From: Ignavibacteriales bacterium
GTDB lineage: Bacteria; Bacteroidota; Ignavibacteria; Ignavibacteriales; SURF-24
Length of the DNA stretch: 32,913 nt
Direction: 5' to 3'
Assembly (NCBI GenBank): GCA_026390815.1
Contig: JAPLFH010000011.1
Span: 66,122-99,034, forward strand
The stretch's first letter is position 1; each line of letters starts with the position of its first letter. A program made the translations under genes and the position numbers. Of this stretch, positions 2,786 through 26,558 are shown piece after piece. The notes under the pieces were generated by a model that saw only the letters and a program-made list of their open reading frames with translations, did not search any database and was not told the origin of the DNA.

Positions 2786-3916
2786 TTATTTTTCGATCTT
2801 TAGGATAAAGGATTCTTTACCTCTATCTTTTAAAAAACTTCCTAAGCTGGAAGATGATTTGAATAGATCAACTAATTTATTTTGTTCGGATTCTGAATTT
2901 CCGGAATTTTTTTCTTGTTTAATATTTTGTTTTTTCTTTTGTAGAAAATCGCTAATGGAAGATTTTGTCTTTTCTTTATCGGAAAATTTTTCCTGAATAA
3001 GAGTTTCATTTTTTCTTTTATTGGAATCAGGAATATTTTTAGATACTGCTTTATATTCTTTAATCTTTCCTTGATCGACATTAAAAGGTTCTCTAAAATT
3101 TATAGTTTCGCTTTCTTTAGTCCTAAAATCAACATTTTTAGGTTCAACTTTTTTGGGAACAATTGTTCCCGATTCAACACTAACTTGCTTTTCAGTTCTC
3201 TGTTCCACATTGTTATGAACTTGTTCTTTATTCTTGTCCTCTTTCAATTGGATAATTTCTTTCTTTACAGTAACAGTGTTTTCAATGGTTGGTTTATCCT
3301 TAAAATCTATTTTAGCCCGGACAAATACTTTAGAGGAATCAGTTGATAATTTAGAAATATCATGTTCATTTTTTATTATCGGTATTTCTTCAACTGATTT
3401 TGCCTCCTCACCAGAAAAAGAAATGTCAAATGCAAAAATAGCTTCAGCATATACTCTGTCATTTTGATTTTTCGCTTCTTCAGCTTTTAAATCGAAAGCA
3501 TAGATTTCTGAAAAATCCAGGTAGCTTCCCATTTTTGAATTTGAAGTGAGACCGACCTGCTGTATTTTGAATCGAAATGTTTCGAAGTTTATATTGTTTT
3601 TTATATGCTCAATATCTTTAATTGCAAAGATTGGGTCAAAATAAATTAATTCAACGTTACCTTGGATTTTAAGGAAGAAACCGTATTTAGTTATATTTGC
3701 ATTAAACGAAGGTTGATTTGTAAGGAGACGATATACAATCAAACTTTTGGGAACTGGGGCATTGATAAAATTCCCAACCTCATTAAGACTTATAGTAACA
3801 GGTTTTTTAGAAGATTTTTGTTTATAGCAAACTTTAAAATTATTCTGAAGATCAAACTTGTTTTCAGAAAAAATTAAAACGTCATTCTTTTTAATATCCA
3901 ACGTTTCTAACAGCAT
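2786..3916 (-). CDS. Unrecognised charged protein, coupled to glucan phosphorylase
   Basis: I do not recognise this 376-aa protein. Residues 1 to about 185 look like a folded, strand-rich domain with no signal peptide or membrane segment. From about 190 to 345 the sequence is low-complexity and rich in Lys, Glu, Asn and Ser, probably a disordered linker. Two similar short helical motifs sit near the C-terminus: ISDFLQKK (321-328) and LGSFLKDR (358-365), separated by a polar stretch and an LVDLF segment. The gene begins 4 nt after the stop of the alpha-glucan phosphorylase gene on the same strand, with no clear SD of its own, which suggests translational coupling. A link to glycogen metabolism is inferred from position only. 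Confidence 0.8.
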   Translation of the reverse strand: MLLETLDIKKNDVLIFSENKFDLQNNFKVCYKQKSSKKPVTISLNEVGNFINAPVPKSLIVYRLLTNQPSFNANITKYGFFLKIQGNVELIYFDPIFAIKDIEHIKNNINFETFRFKIQQVGLTSNSKMGSYLDFSEIYAFDLKAEEAKNQNDRVYAEAIFAFDISFSGEEAKSVEEIPIIKNEHDISKLSTDSSKVFVRAKIDFKDKPTIENTVTVKKEIIQLKEDKNKEQVHNNVEQRTEKQVSVESGTIVPKKVEPKNVDFRTKESETINFREPFNVDQGKIKEYKAVSKNIPDSNKRKNETLIQEKFSDKEKTKSSISDFLQKKKQNIKQEKNSGNSESEQNKLVDLFKSSSSLGSFLKDRGKESFILKIEK

Positions 3917-3920
3917 AAAA

Positions 3921-6488
3921 CTATGCCCAGTTTATTAATCCCAAATCGAAGGGAGTTCTTAATAATGAATGCTTTGGTAATATTCTGGCAGTAAATCCAT
4001 ACTGTCCACTGTTCTGTGTAACAATTGATCCTTTATAGGTATAAATATTATTTGTCTGTTTATTCTTTTCCAGATGCATTGAAACAAAAGAATTTGCATG
4101 TGCAATAAATTGTTTATCAATTGAGCCATAATATATCTGAAGTTCAACATCATCTGGAACTAATTCTCCCAGAAATATTTCAGCTTTAACAACAAACTCA
4201 TTTCCAACTTTAACTTCCGTAGAACTTCCATCGAAACCAACATTAATGAACTTGATTTGACCCCAGTTTTTCTTTACTTTTTTCTTCCACTCGGAAAGTA
4301 ATTTAGCCTGTTGAAATGAATTTTTGATCAAGGTTTTTCTACTCTCATAAGAAGTATGGTAAAATTTAGTAAAATATTGTTCTACCATTCTATTTGTATT
4401 AAATATAGAACCTAAAATTCTAATTGAAGCTTTCATTTTACTCAGCCAGGCACGTGGTAATTTATCCTCACTTCTATTATAAAATAATGGCACAATCTCT
4501 CTTTCTAAAGTATTATATAACTGGTTCGATTCAACTTCATTCTGATAATCCAAATCTAAATATTCTTCACCATTGCCAATCTTCCAACCAACTTCTGGAT
4601 CGTAACCTTCGTCCCACCATCCATCAAGAACACTAAAATTCAAACCACCATTTGCAATTACTTTCATACCTGATGTTCCGCTTGCTTCCAGGGGTCTTCT
4701 GGGATTGTTAAGCCAAACATCGCAACCTTCAACCATATACCGCGCAACGTTCATATCATAATTTTCTAAAAAGACAACTTTTTTCCTGAATCTTTCATCC
4801 TGAGCAAATTGAACAATCTCCTGGATTAACTTTTTTCCTTCTTCATCCTTTGGGTGAGCTTTACCAGCAATAATTAATTGTACGGGTTGGGTAGGATTGT
4901 TAAGAATTTTTGATAGCCTATCCAAATCCTGGAAAATAAGAGTTGCTCTTTTATAAGTGGCAAACCTGCGTGCAAAACCGATGGTAAGTGCACCTGGGTC
5001 CAATACTTCACTTGCTGCAGCAATTTCAAACTGAGAGCCGCCTCTTGCAAGAACCTGTTTTCGCAATCGGCTTCTGGCAAATGCTACAAGTCTTTCTCTT
5101 CGTCTTTCGTGTGTACGCCATAATTCTACGTCAGGAATTTTCTCTACGCGTTCCCAAATACTTTGATCTTCCGGCTTCATAACAAATTTTTCACCCAGAT
5201 ATCTATAAAGAAGTTCTCCCATATCGGTAGAAATATGACTGCGTGTATGAACTCCATTTGTAATATAATCAATCGGAATTTCATCAAATGGAACACCTTT
5301 AAATCCGGAAACCCACATTTTTTTAGATACTTCACCATGCAGCCGGCTAACGCCATTTACATATCCAGCAGTGTTCATAGCAAGGTGTGCCATATTAAAA
5401 TTAGTTGGAGGTGCATCGCGATTAATCGTTCCAAGCTGGTAGAAATCCCGGTCAGAAACCTTTAACTCGTTTCGATAATAATCGCCAAAATATCTTTCAA
5501 CCATTTGATTATCGAATATATCTATTCCAGCAGAAACAGGTGTATGTGTTGTAAAAATGTTTGAATAATATCCAACTTCTTTCGCTTCATCAAAAGTTAA
5601 TCCATCTTCCTGTATTAGAAAACGCATTCTTTCCAAAGATAAAAATGCAGAATGTCCTTCATTCATATGACATACCTGCGGTTTGATGCCCATTGCATGA
5701 AGTGCTCTAAGTCCACCTATTCCCAATATAATTTCCTGTTGAATTCTGGTTTCGTTATTACCACCATAAAGAGTACGGGTAATTTTTCTGTCTTCTTCAC
5801 CATTCTCAGGAATATTTGTATCCAATAAAAAAAGTGGAACACGCCCAACATCAATCCTCCAAATCTGAAAATAAACGGGTCTTCCAGGAAAATTTAATTT
5901 TATTTTACGCGGAGCTTTTTGCTCATCAAGTTCAAGTGTCATTGGTAAATTGTAAAAATCGTTCAACTCATAACGTTCCTGCTGCCAACCATCTGAGGTA
6001 AGATATTGCTGGAAGTAACCTTCTTTATAAAGCAATCCAATTCCCACCAAAGGTAATCCAAGTTCGGAAGCAGATTTAATATGATCACCTGCCAAAATTC
6101 CCAATCCGCCGGAATAAGTTTGCAGGCATTCTGTCAATCCAAATTCCGCAGAAAAATATGCAATGAATGGTTTGCCATTTCCTTTAAAATTTTTCTGGTA
6201 CCAATTTGACTGTGTTAAATAAGTCTTAAGCTGATTATATGAACGGCTCATATGAGCTATAAAACCATCATCATTAGAAACTTCAATTAATCTTTCCTGG
6301 CTAATTTTTCCAAGCATCATTACCGGGTTATGATTTGTAGATTCCCATAATTCTCTATCGAGTCGTCTAAAAAGTTCAAATGATTCCTGGTTCCAGGTCC
6401 AATGTAAATTATTTGCTAATTCCCTCAGCGGTTCTAAATTTTTTGGTAAAGAAGGAGTTACATTAAAGGTTCCAATGAAATTCGCCAT
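3921..6488 (-). CDS. glgP: Alpha-glucan (glycogen/maltodextrin) phosphorylase, GT35, DUF3417 N-terminus
   Basis: This 855-aa cytoplasmic enzyme releases glucose-1-phosphate from alpha-1,4-glucans by phosphorolysis. It belongs to the shorter bacterial/archaeal GT35 branch that starts with a DUF3417 domain (about 1-110, LRELANNLHWTWNQES). Glucan- and phosphate-site segments follow: YFSAEFGL (111-118), GGLGILAGDHIKSASELG (127-144), MNEGHSAF (275-282) and FARRFATYKRA (505-515). The pyridoxal-phosphate lysine is K609 in EASGTSGMK (601-609). The last 120 residues form a beta-rich domain usual in this branch. The ATG at 6488 has a GGGAG ribosome site just upstream. The gene for an unknown charged protein follows after 4 nt. 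The 295-bp gap upstream (6489-6783) should hold its promoter, and contains the terminator of the preceding gene. Confidence 0.96.
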   Translation of the reverse strand: MANFIGTFNVTPSLPKNLEPLRELANNLHWTWNQESFELFRRLDRELWESTNHNPVMMLGKISQERLIEVSNDDGFIAHMSRSYNQLKTYLTQSNWYQKNFKGNGKPFIAYFSAEFGLTECLQTYSGGLGILAGDHIKSASELGLPLVGIGLLYKEGYFQQYLTSDGWQQERYELNDFYNLPMTLELDEQKAPRKIKLNFPGRPVYFQIWRIDVGRVPLFLLDTNIPENGEEDRKITRTLYGGNNETRIQQEIILGIGGLRALHAMGIKPQVCHMNEGHSAFLSLERMRFLIQEDGLTFDEAKEVGYYSNIFTTHTPVSAGIDIFDNQMVERYFGDYYRNELKVSDRDFYQLGTINRDAPPTNFNMAHLAMNTAGYVNGVSRLHGEVSKKMWVSGFKGVPFDEIPIDYITNGVHTRSHISTDMGELLYRYLGEKFVMKPEDQSIWERVEKIPDVELWRTHERRRERLVAFARSRLRKQVLARGGSQFEIAAASEVLDPGALTIGFARRFATYKRATLIFQDLDRLSKILNNPTQPVQLIIAGKAHPKDEEGKKLIQEIVQFAQDERFRKKVVFLENYDMNVARYMVEGCDVWLNNPRRPLEASGTSGMKVIANGGLNFSVLDGWWDEGYDPEVGWKIGNGEEYLDLDYQNEVESNQLYNTLEREIVPLFYNRSEDKLPRAWLSKMKASIRILGSIFNTNRMVEQYFTKFYHTSYESRKTLIKNSFQQAKLLSEWKKKVKKNWGQIKFINVGFDGSSTEVKVGNEFVVKAEIFLGELVPDDVELQIYYGSIDKQFIAHANSFVSMHLEKNKQTNNIYTYKGSIVTQNSGQYGFTARILPKHSLLRTPFDLGLINWA

Positions 6489-18121: not shown

Positions 18122-18622
18122 TTAAAAATTTGATTCATCAATCCACCTTACAATTTGCCATTTATTAATAGTATTTTTTCTTAAAGTTAAATTAACTTTT
18201 CCATCTACTCGTACAATATCTGTTGGATTAAAAGTAATTGTTAAATTAAAACTTCTTACAATATTAGTTGAATCACTTGAAATTAGCAGAATGTTATTCC
18301 AGATCAAATCAAGCCGTTGAGAATTTTGAAATAAACCATTTGTTACTCTCATCTCATCATCTCTTCCCCAAGAAACATCAAATCCAAGGTCATAATCTCT
18401 ATATGTAAAATTAAAATCGTTAGCCACTAAATCACCATAAATTGTTGTATCCTTAAAAGAATATGCATATTGTAAGTTTTGAAAGATTCCATCAACTTTT
18501 GTTAAATCAGAAATAGGCGAATTATTTGAATTTAGATTTTCATCCAATTCGGGAGCAAATGGATTGAAACATCCTGACATAAATATTATTGGGAAAAGAT
18601 ATATCATTAACTTTTTTTTCAT
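18122..18622 (-). CDS. Small lipoprotein, unknown function (NTF2-like features)
   Basis: A 166-aa product with an N-terminal lipobox (IIFMSGC, lipidated C18). The rest is one globular domain of alternating strands ending in NKWQIVRWIDESNF. The length and the C-terminal 'KWQI..W' strand resemble SnoaL/NTF2-like domains and match the gene just upstream, so the two are probably paralogues. I cannot name a ligand. The preferred start is the ATG at 18620-18622, which overlaps the preceding stop by one base (TGATG); a TTG one codon earlier would also work. It lies between the second lipoprotein and ftsX in the operon. Confidence 0.8.
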   Translation of the reverse strand: MKKKLMIYLFPIIFMSGCFNPFAPELDENLNSNNSPISDLTKVDGIFQNLQYAYSFKDTTIYGDLVANDFNFTYRDYDLGFDVSWGRDDEMRVTNGLFQNSQRLDLIWNNILLISSDSTNIVRSFNLTITFNPTDIVRVDGKVNLTLRKNTINKWQIVRWIDESNF

Positions 18623-19197
18623 CAATAATATCTTCCTTTAAGTTCACTCCAGCTTGGGAAAGTTTCATCTTTAATATCCTGCCAATTTGAAATAGACCAT
18701 TGCAATCTACCATCGCGAATTAATGTGAAATGCAAATTACCTTCATAATATTTTGGTTTTTGTTCATCCAATGTTGGTATTGAAATGGAATAGCTTGCTG
18801 TATATGAAGTGCTATCGCCTAAAAAATTTTTTTCTTCATTAATAAAACTCAGCACAATATTATTGTTTTTGTCGATCGAGTTAATCAAATTAATAAAGTA
18901 TTGTCTTTCACCCTGCAGATTCCAACTTAATAGAAATATGTATTTGGAACCTGAACCAGCAGATGGATAAAACCTAAACTTCTTATCTGAAAAAGATGAA
19001 TCGACAAAACAGGAAAGATAATTCTCAACAACTTTATCTTTAAATGAATCTTTTAAGTTTTGGATAAGAATTTCAGGAGTGGTGGCAGTTTGATTATTAG
19101 TCCTTGGCGTTTCCGGTTTTTCCGCTGATCTTGTTGAAAAAATATCGCACGATACAAAGATAAAAGTTGTTAGACAAAAAATAATAATCTTTTTCAT
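18622..19197 (-). CDS. Small lipoprotein, unknown function, probable paralogue of its neighbour
   Basis: This 191-aa protein has a lipoprotein signal ending FIFVSC (C17), a Ser/Thr/Pro linker (about 24-40) and a globular domain. The domain begins with a helix (EILIQNLKDSFKDKVVENYLSCFVD) and ends with the strand 'LQWSISNWQDI'. A helical start followed by strands ending near a Trp is typical of NTF2/SnoaL-like folds that bind small ligands or partner proteins, and the following gene shares it. Function is unknown. It starts with ATG overlapping the methyltransferase stop by 4 nt (ATGA), so the genes are translationally coupled. Confidence 0.82.
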   Translation of the reverse strand: MKKIIIFCLTTFIFVSCDIFSTRSAEKPETPRTNNQTATTPEILIQNLKDSFKDKVVENYLSCFVDSSFSDKKFRFYPSAGSGSKYIFLLSWNLQGERQYFINLINSIDKNNNIVLSFINEEKNFLGDSTSYTASYSISIPTLDEQKPKYYEGNLHFTLIRDGRLQWSISNWQDIKDETFPSWSELKGRYY

Positions 19198-25858: not shown

Positions 25859-25882
25859 GCATAAAAAGAAATTCTTTTATGC
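25859..25882 (+). promoter_or_regulatory. Inverted repeat over the HEPN start codon, candidate operator
   Basis: GCATAAAAAGAA (25859-25870) and TTCTTTTATGC (25872-25882) are complementary arms with one extra A. The right arm contains the ATG of the HEPN gene, and a TATATT (25850-25855) sits just upstream. Position at the presumed transcription start fits autorepression or translational control of a toxin-antitoxin-like operon. Confidence 0.45.
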
Positions 25883-26259
25883 TTGATGTTATTAAACAAA
25901 TCGACTACTGGAAAGCGGGTGCAATAAACGACATTGAATCTGCCGAGATCCTACTTGAAAAGAAAAAATACCTTCACGGTTTATTTTTCTGTCATTTAAC
26001 TATTGAAAAAGCATTAAAGGCTAATTACGTTAAAGCAAATAATAAATTGGCACCTAAAACACACCAATTAAGATATCTTCATAATAACTCTAATATCAAA
26101 TTAAACATAGAACAAGAAGAACTTCTTGGCATTTTAATGAACTACCAAATTGAAGGCAGATATCCCGAATATAAAATACAACTACCTAATTCTGAATTAG
26201 TAAAAGAATATCTTAAAAGAACAAAAGAATTATTGAAATGGTTAGTAGAGAAATTATAA
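25879..26259 (+). CDS. HEPN-domain protein (PF05168 type)
   Basis: A 126-aa all-helical HEPN protein: SAEILLEKKKYLHGLFFCHLTIEKALKA (helices 2-3), PKTHQLRYL and NYQIEGRYPEY are the usual landmarks of the PF05168 group. In MNT/HEPN pairs the HEPN member can be an RNase toxin, but the RX4-6H catalytic motif of HepT is not present here: R65 is followed by H68 only three residues on. RNase activity should therefore not be assumed. It overlaps the downstream nucleotidyltransferase gene by 22 nt. There is no SD; the ATG lies in an inverted repeat. Confidence 0.88.
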   Translation: MLDVIKQIDYWKAGAINDIESAEILLEKKKYLHGLFFCHLTIEKALKANYVKANNKLAPKTHQLRYLHNNSNIKLNIEQEELLGILMNYQIEGRYPEYKIQLPNSELVKEYLKRTKELLKWLVEKL

Positions 26260-26558
26260 AAACAATTAAACTATACCTTAATGAAGTTGCTAAAAAAGGT
26301 ATTAGTATAAAAAAAGCATATTTGTATGGGAGTCATGCAAGAGGTGAGGCTACGTCTGATAGTGACATAGATTTATTATTAGTCTCACCATTATTTGAAG
26401 AAAGAAATGACAAATTAAAAGCTCAGCTTTGGCTGATTGCTGGTGATATAAATTATAAAATTGAGCCTTATGCAGTAGGCGAAAAAAAATTTTTGGAAGA
26501 TGATCATTCTCCATTGTTAGAAACTGTAAGACAAGAAGGAATTGAAATAAGTTTTTAA
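26238..26558 (+). CDS. MNT-type minimal nucleotidyltransferase
   Basis: The 106-aa protein carries the pol-beta-like motif GSHARGEATSDSDIDLLL, with GS at 31-32 and metal-binding D43 and D45. A third acidic position could be E77 in INYKIEPYAV. In characterised MntA/HepT (type VII) systems this enzyme AMPylates the HEPN partner to silence it; in HI0073/HI0074-like pairs the role is unknown. The 22-nt overlap with the HEPN gene shows the two are one unit. Confidence 0.9.
   Translation: MVSREIIKTIKLYLNEVAKKGISIKKAYLYGSHARGEATSDSDIDLLLVSPLFEERNDKLKAQLWLIAGDINYKIEPYAVGEKKFLEDDHSPLLETVRQEGIEISF

Follow-up and report, generated by a model that had tools for sequence, protein, structure and literature searches.

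The 376-residue protein encoded immediately behind an alpha-glucan phosphorylase gene in an Ignavibacteriales genome belongs to a real, well-conserved and lineage-specific protein family, whose members usually, but not always, sit beside that gene. The reading we favour, tentatively and at close to even confidence, is that it is a lineage-specific alpha/beta module with a self-latching tail, whose role does not require the neighbouring DUF3417-type phosphorylase (GlgP). According to this proposal, one alpha/beta domain of approximately 170 residues would be followed by a charged linker, disordered over most of its length, and then by a conserved tail, which would fold back and add the last strand to its own domain, thereby forming an internal latch. 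The protein would act as a binding module, its tail covering its own binding edge until displaced by a partner or ligand; it would usually share a transcript with the DUF3417-type phosphorylase and would keep its function where that enzyme is absent. The features of the window, that is, the whole 32,913-nucleotide stretch of DNA analysed, are the following.

2786-3916, minus strand: ORF under study, 376 aa, member of an unnamed conserved family found only in its order among the genomes searched
3401-3916, minus strand: predicted N-terminal alpha/beta domain, residues 1-172, delimited by alignments and by AlphaFold block means mostly above 90
2897-3391, minus strand: linker of variable sequence, charged and mostly disordered, residues 176-340
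2789-2896, minus strand: conserved C-terminal tail, residues 341-376, with the DLFKS helix, a second helix and a terminal strand
3917-3920, minus strand: gap of 4 nt between the glgP stop and the ORF start
3921-6488, minus strand: glgP, encoding a DUF3417-type alpha-glucan phosphorylase of 855 aa (PF11897, 3.9e-39; PF00343, 2.6e-37)

The ORF proved to be real, as a preliminary description of this DNA had assumed, and is present as a single copy in the 4.52-Mb genome. Its start 4 nt past the glgP stop was borne out by the junction, which reads TAG-TTTT-ATG. The upstream GlgP has an intact ASGTSGMK segment, invariant across eight aligned homologues, the lysine of which binds PLP. Translational coupling to glgP, also part of the preliminary description, matches the spacing at this locus but did not hold up as a general trait: where the two genes are direct neighbours (42 pairs), the gap ranged from 0 to 429 nt with a median of 24 nt, measuring 10 nt or less in 11 pairs and more than 100 nt in five. 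Because the 4-nt spacing is not general, tight coupling would apply to some members at most. Most family genes are probably co-transcribed with glgP.

Searching with the single window protein recovered relatives in 93 of the 164 genomes of the order. With a profile built from 50 members, two wider samples were scanned: 391 genomes of the class, of which 54 matched, and 395 of the phylum, of which 28 did. All matches were from the same order, and no family member was detected outside it in either sample. An alignment-based scan of a named genome collection yielded 74 loci, while a single-sequence scan of the same collection confirmed no relative. The titles of the 74 loci named Ignavibacteria, Ignavibacteriae, Ignavibacteriales, Ignavibacteriaceae, Melioribacteraceae, Melioribacter and Stygiobacter, or carried labels that were broader or gave no placement (Bacteroidetes, Chlorobiota, bacterium); the one locus labelled Chlorobiaceae (L197) appears to correspond to G070:C36, which is counted within the same order. 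The 60 loci fetched first came from these 93 positive genomes; 33 positive genomes were not among them, seven of which (G005, G012, G014, G015, G064, G077 and G155) were fetched later. Alignment A1 comprises 50 of the 60 first loci, and alignment A2 has 60 rows, namely 55 first loci (without L036, L040, L058, L071 and L085) and five later ones, with L154 and L155 left out as contig-edge fragments.

Neither the window protein nor any of 50 members gave a credible match in Pfam or NCBIfam, and these searches revealed no recognisable carbohydrate-binding module. An isolated DUF5752 match (9.4e-5) occurred in one of the 50 members and was absent among 20 members compared with Pfam singly, which gave nothing credible either. 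Profile comparison with PDB sequences returned no credible match, and plasmid and phage records held no match to the family. Literature searches on glycogen in Ignavibacteria or Melioribacter, on DUF3417 and on glgP/HPr brought up nothing on this protein in the titles and abstract starts of the matches listed; judged from these searches alone, the family seems undescribed.

Gene order around the family gene is conserved. In 42 of 60 loci, glgP directly precedes the family gene on the same strand; in five more, one short ORF lay in between, and in one (L040) glgP was cut by the contig end. As glgP thus lies just upstream in 48 of 60 loci, the link between the two genes is genuine, and for a gene unrelated to the enzyme such adjacency would be strong, which counts against our favoured reading. 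The same gene order speaks for the function suggested in the preliminary description, namely an adaptor docking to GlgP, whose C-terminal peptides would hold the enzyme or bring it to glycogen granules. Homologues do not, however, always neighbour glgP, as 12 of the 60 loci had none beside the family gene: in one of these (L057) the genome encodes its GlgP on another contig, and the genomes behind the remaining 11 have no DUF3417-type GlgP. We rejected other neighbours as the true partner, as the next most frequent was found in only 27 loci compared with 47 for glgP. Recurring neighbours were a trypsin-like PDZ protease (27/60), plsY (25/60) and an adenylosuccinate-lyase-like gene (24/60); an AAA/VWA pair, glycosyltransferases and secretion-tail proteins were rarer, each in at most ten of 60 loci, and contig ends limit all of these neighbour counts. 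The intervening ORF encodes a 23S rRNA intervening-sequence protein in four of five cases and is a 72-aa ORF without a match in L063. These insertion-like PF05635 ORFs lie in the glgP/family gap at L035:6605-6958 (4.2e-28), L041:6548-6868 (5.9e-18), L045:1726-2154 (5.8e-21) and L046:6579-6941 (1.1e-23).

Enzyme and family part company in a number of genomes. DUF3417-type GlgP was detected in 105 of the 164 genomes of the order (E 1e-50 or better). Both protein and enzyme were found in 72 genomes, the family only in 21, GlgP only in 33 and neither in 38; presence of the two is associated (Fisher P = 7e-5), which counts against our favoured reading, though the genomes are related and adjacent genes are lost together. 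Setting aside three contig-edge cases (G020, G146 and G155) left 18 genomes that keep the family without a DUF3417-type GlgP, 11 of which are at least 90% complete (including G010, G013, G036, G076, G080 and G081). Conversely, a single-sequence search detected no family member in 33 genomes with GlgP. The glgP regions of 32 of these (G073 was left out) gave no family profile match at E 1, with the downstream side off the contig in five regions and approximately 490 nt of it left in a sixth. Hence, homologues are not confined to the glgP context, and GlgP also occurs without a detected family member, which argues against a docking adaptor on both counts.

The family also appears to have stayed useful in the absence of the enzyme. 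In an N-domain tree (quick method, 60 A2 rows), the GlgP-less state of 11 rows needs five changes, at least three of them forced by well-supported (starred) branches; loss or gain as the direction of change is not given by the tree. In G080/G081, a pair lacking GlgP, the N-domain dN was 0.005 and dS 0.36, giving a dN/dS of 0.014 and indicating that the protein is under very strong purifying selection in that genus although DUF3417-type GlgP is absent, again to the detriment of a docking adaptor. Two glgP-linked pairs gave values of 0.027 (dS 0.63) and 0.031 (dS 0.48). Of the 13 pairs run, only these three had an N-domain dS below 1, so that selection without GlgP rests on one pair; in five other GlgP-less pairs, dS was saturated or not computable. 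Across the order, DUF3417-type and classical phosphorylases are distributed patchily, with some genomes having both and others only one.

As for the protein itself, AlphaFold block means range from 82 to 96 over residues 1-170 of the window protein and support the folded N-terminal part that had been expected. All 16 columns invariant over the 60 rows fall within residues 1-153 (in window numbering M1, E4, S17, N19, F27, Y62, R63, L65, G79, D94, P95, Q119, G122, E137, E147 and D153). The long disordered linker of the preliminary description was likewise recovered for the most part, with pLDDT below 50 at residues 185-205, 212-217 and 243-315. Mean column entropy was 2.70 bits for residues 176-315 versus 1.59 for residues 1-175. 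A short linker strand is predicted at residues 223-226 of the window protein and 181-184 of a 250-aa homologue, near a recurring IxED motif. This homologue (L044:5914-6666, from G134), which has 45% identity with the window protein, was modelled from the 60-row alignment with a mean pLDDT of 86 and a pTM of 0.83. The protein is presumably cytoplasmic, no signal peptide being apparent by eye.

The C-terminal tail is the second conserved element. In the window model, confidence rises again after the disordered linker (pLDDT 71 for residues 351-360 and 91 for residues 361-376), and the tail of the 250-aa homologue, which ends in a strand, was again confident (last blocks 82 and 92). Since the family is kept in GlgP-less genomes and the tail is predicted to fold on the protein itself, with its end modelled confidently in models that contain no partner, the protein is probably not a dedicated GlgP adaptor. 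Two peptides had originally been singled out as similar docking motifs, ISDFLQKK (residues 321-328) and LGSFLKDR (358-365). Their similarity is no better than chance, which removes a further argument for an adaptor: they share two of eight residues with a BLOSUM62 score of 14, and shuffling residues 301-376 produced some eight-residue pair scoring at least 14 in 500 of 500 trials, while 239 of 500 reached 21, the top pair score within the actual tail. What stood was the conservation of the tail region as such, a point in the adaptor's favour; the strongest columns over 60 rows lie outside both peptides (F352, 95%; K353, 91%; L372, 98%; K373, 76%), compared with weaker ones within them (F324, 58%; L325, 47%; F361, 27%; L362, 46%).

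The terminal ILKL-type strand pattern was seen in 53 of 60 loci, and none of 500 shuffled sets showed it in more than one of 60; this control covers composition effects only, as the tail patterns were written after viewing the sequences. The strand occurred in ten of 11 loci from GlgP-less genomes versus 43 of 48 beside glgP (P = 1.0); being equally common with and without GlgP, it looks internal to the protein. DLFKS, in contrast, was found in six of 11 loci from GlgP-less genomes versus 41 of 48 beside glgP (Fisher P = 0.036, among related sequences), a trend that would fit GlgP contact through DLFKS, favours the docking adaptor and weighs against our own reading. Three of the five misses come from one genus (L083-L085) and one (L088) reads QMFKS. 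Also awkward for the self-latching module are L086 and L087 (genus g34), which lie beside glgP and have no recognisable tail, L086 being near a contig end. Among the inner branches of the tree, the one that unites the N-domains of these two is the longest (1.55); tail loss coincides with fast N-domain change.

From model confidence and alignment ranges, the tail apparently packs on its own N-domain. In both models, the top alignments with cyclase domains extend as far as the final residue, which suggests, at Z values of only 3.2-3.3, that the tail lies against its own domain; alternatively, the tail may be swapped between the domains of a dimer, or its placement may be an artefact of modelling. 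Displacement of such a latch by a partner would follow the proposal above. Taken together, the self-latching module is consistent with a terminal strand that is common irrespective of GlgP and with a family that is kept where the enzyme is missing.

A somewhat unlikely alternative is that the protein assists alpha-glucan metabolism in general as an accessory factor, binding glucan or either phosphorylase type and tuning degradation; where the DUF3417-type enzyme is absent, it could then persist with a classical phosphorylase doing the work. The conserved pairing with glgP fits this idea, as do PF00343 matches elsewhere in all 18 GlgP-less family-positive genomes, which are of the strong classical kind (partial in G012, G014 and G061, and only a 78-position fragment in G011), and GT5 glycogen synthase matches in 162 of 164 genomes, which make the pathway near universal in the order. 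Glycogen phosphorylase of E. coli is of the classical type. A precedent from that species is HPr, which is reported to interact with this phosphorylase and to regulate its oligomeric state and activity (PMC11046441). HPr would be a parallel, if the glucan role is right, in being a small non-enzymatic protein that affects a bacterial glucan phosphorylase; our family differs in that its gene adjoins a DUF3417-type phosphorylase and occurs without that enzyme in 18 genomes.

Several observations weaken the accessory factor. Phosphorylase matches (PF00343) were found in 144 of 164 genomes, including 55 of the 71 family-negative ones, so that their presence is hardly informative; together with GT5 and CBM48 (153/164), they are too common in the order to discriminate. 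The family and any phosphorylase occurred together in 89 genomes, the family only in four, phosphorylase only in 55 and neither in 16 (P = 5e-4), the four exceptions lying at contig ends or on fragments; we did not count this co-occurrence as support because missing sequence removes both genes together. CBM48 is the usual domain of branching enzymes. Among the family-positive genomes, seven (G032-G035 of genus g11, G064, G088 and G143) matched neither CBM48, a short domain that may be missed at E 1e-5, nor GH57. The firmest of them are G035 (98% complete) and G064 (99%). This is suggestive, rather than proof, of a family role outside branched glycogen. Five genomes of genus g11 lack both matches. 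In the same genus, the DUF3417-type phosphorylase at L079:3743-5893 (G035) ends approximately 130 residues early, and the GlgP matches of G033-G035 end near position 720-724. The lack of any credible carbohydrate-binding family match points in the same direction, and any tie of the family to glucan metabolism is putative.

It is less probable, and on balance unlikely, that the protein is an enzyme or a nucleotide-responsive domain, with E4, R63, D94, Q119, E137, E147 and D153 forming an active or ligand site and the adjacency to glgP being incidental. The number of invariant columns among 60 diverse sequences would suit such a role, as would a very weak resemblance to class III nucleotidyl cyclase domains, the best VIA-align match of both models: residues 55-376 of the window protein aligned with a Z of 3.2 (r.m.s.d. 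4.4, 112 aligned) and residues 53-250 of the 250-aa homologue with a Z of 3.3 (r.m.s.d. 4.5, 118 aligned). However, these Z values are at noise level, lower than the tool itself describes as usual for models lacking any clear match, and identity is 8%; we claim no kinship. Foldseek returned nothing at E 0.001 or better, either against the PDB (two models) or against viral models (one model), and no named family matched credibly. Structural hits to kinesin, Cdc13 and cyclase were dismissed as noise. The absence of a structural match does not establish that the fold is new.

A combined version, in which an order-confined family of unrecognised fold regulates alpha-glucan breakdown with either phosphorylase and is switched by its self-latching C-terminal tail, appears improbable. 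The dedicated GlgP-docking adaptor, finally, is in light of the evidence given above very unlikely.

Some lineage-restricted families of unknown function are co-transcribed with housekeeping enzymes and combine a narrow distribution and no named domain with a conserved operon position. The present family has these traits in common with them; it differs in its predicted folded-back tail and in its presence without the operon partner. If it tunes glucan breakdown, it would give this little-studied group a control point specific to the lineage; if it has no glucan role, it would serve as a warning that operon position alone misleads, as the gene recurs without its usual neighbour enzyme. Either way, the family adds a domain that is conserved and unnamed, is modelled confidently (pTM 0.83, short homologue) and comes with the prediction of a tail latch.

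Elsewhere in the window, two ORFs overlapping by 22 nt (25879-26558, plus strand) encode a HEPN protein (PF05168, 1.8e-18) and a nucleotidyltransferase (PF01909, 4.2e-12), a pair that looks like a HEPN-MNT toxin-antitoxin system. Two adjoining lipoprotein-like ORFs of 167 and 191 aa, which gave no Pfam match, are located at 18122-19197 on the minus strand.
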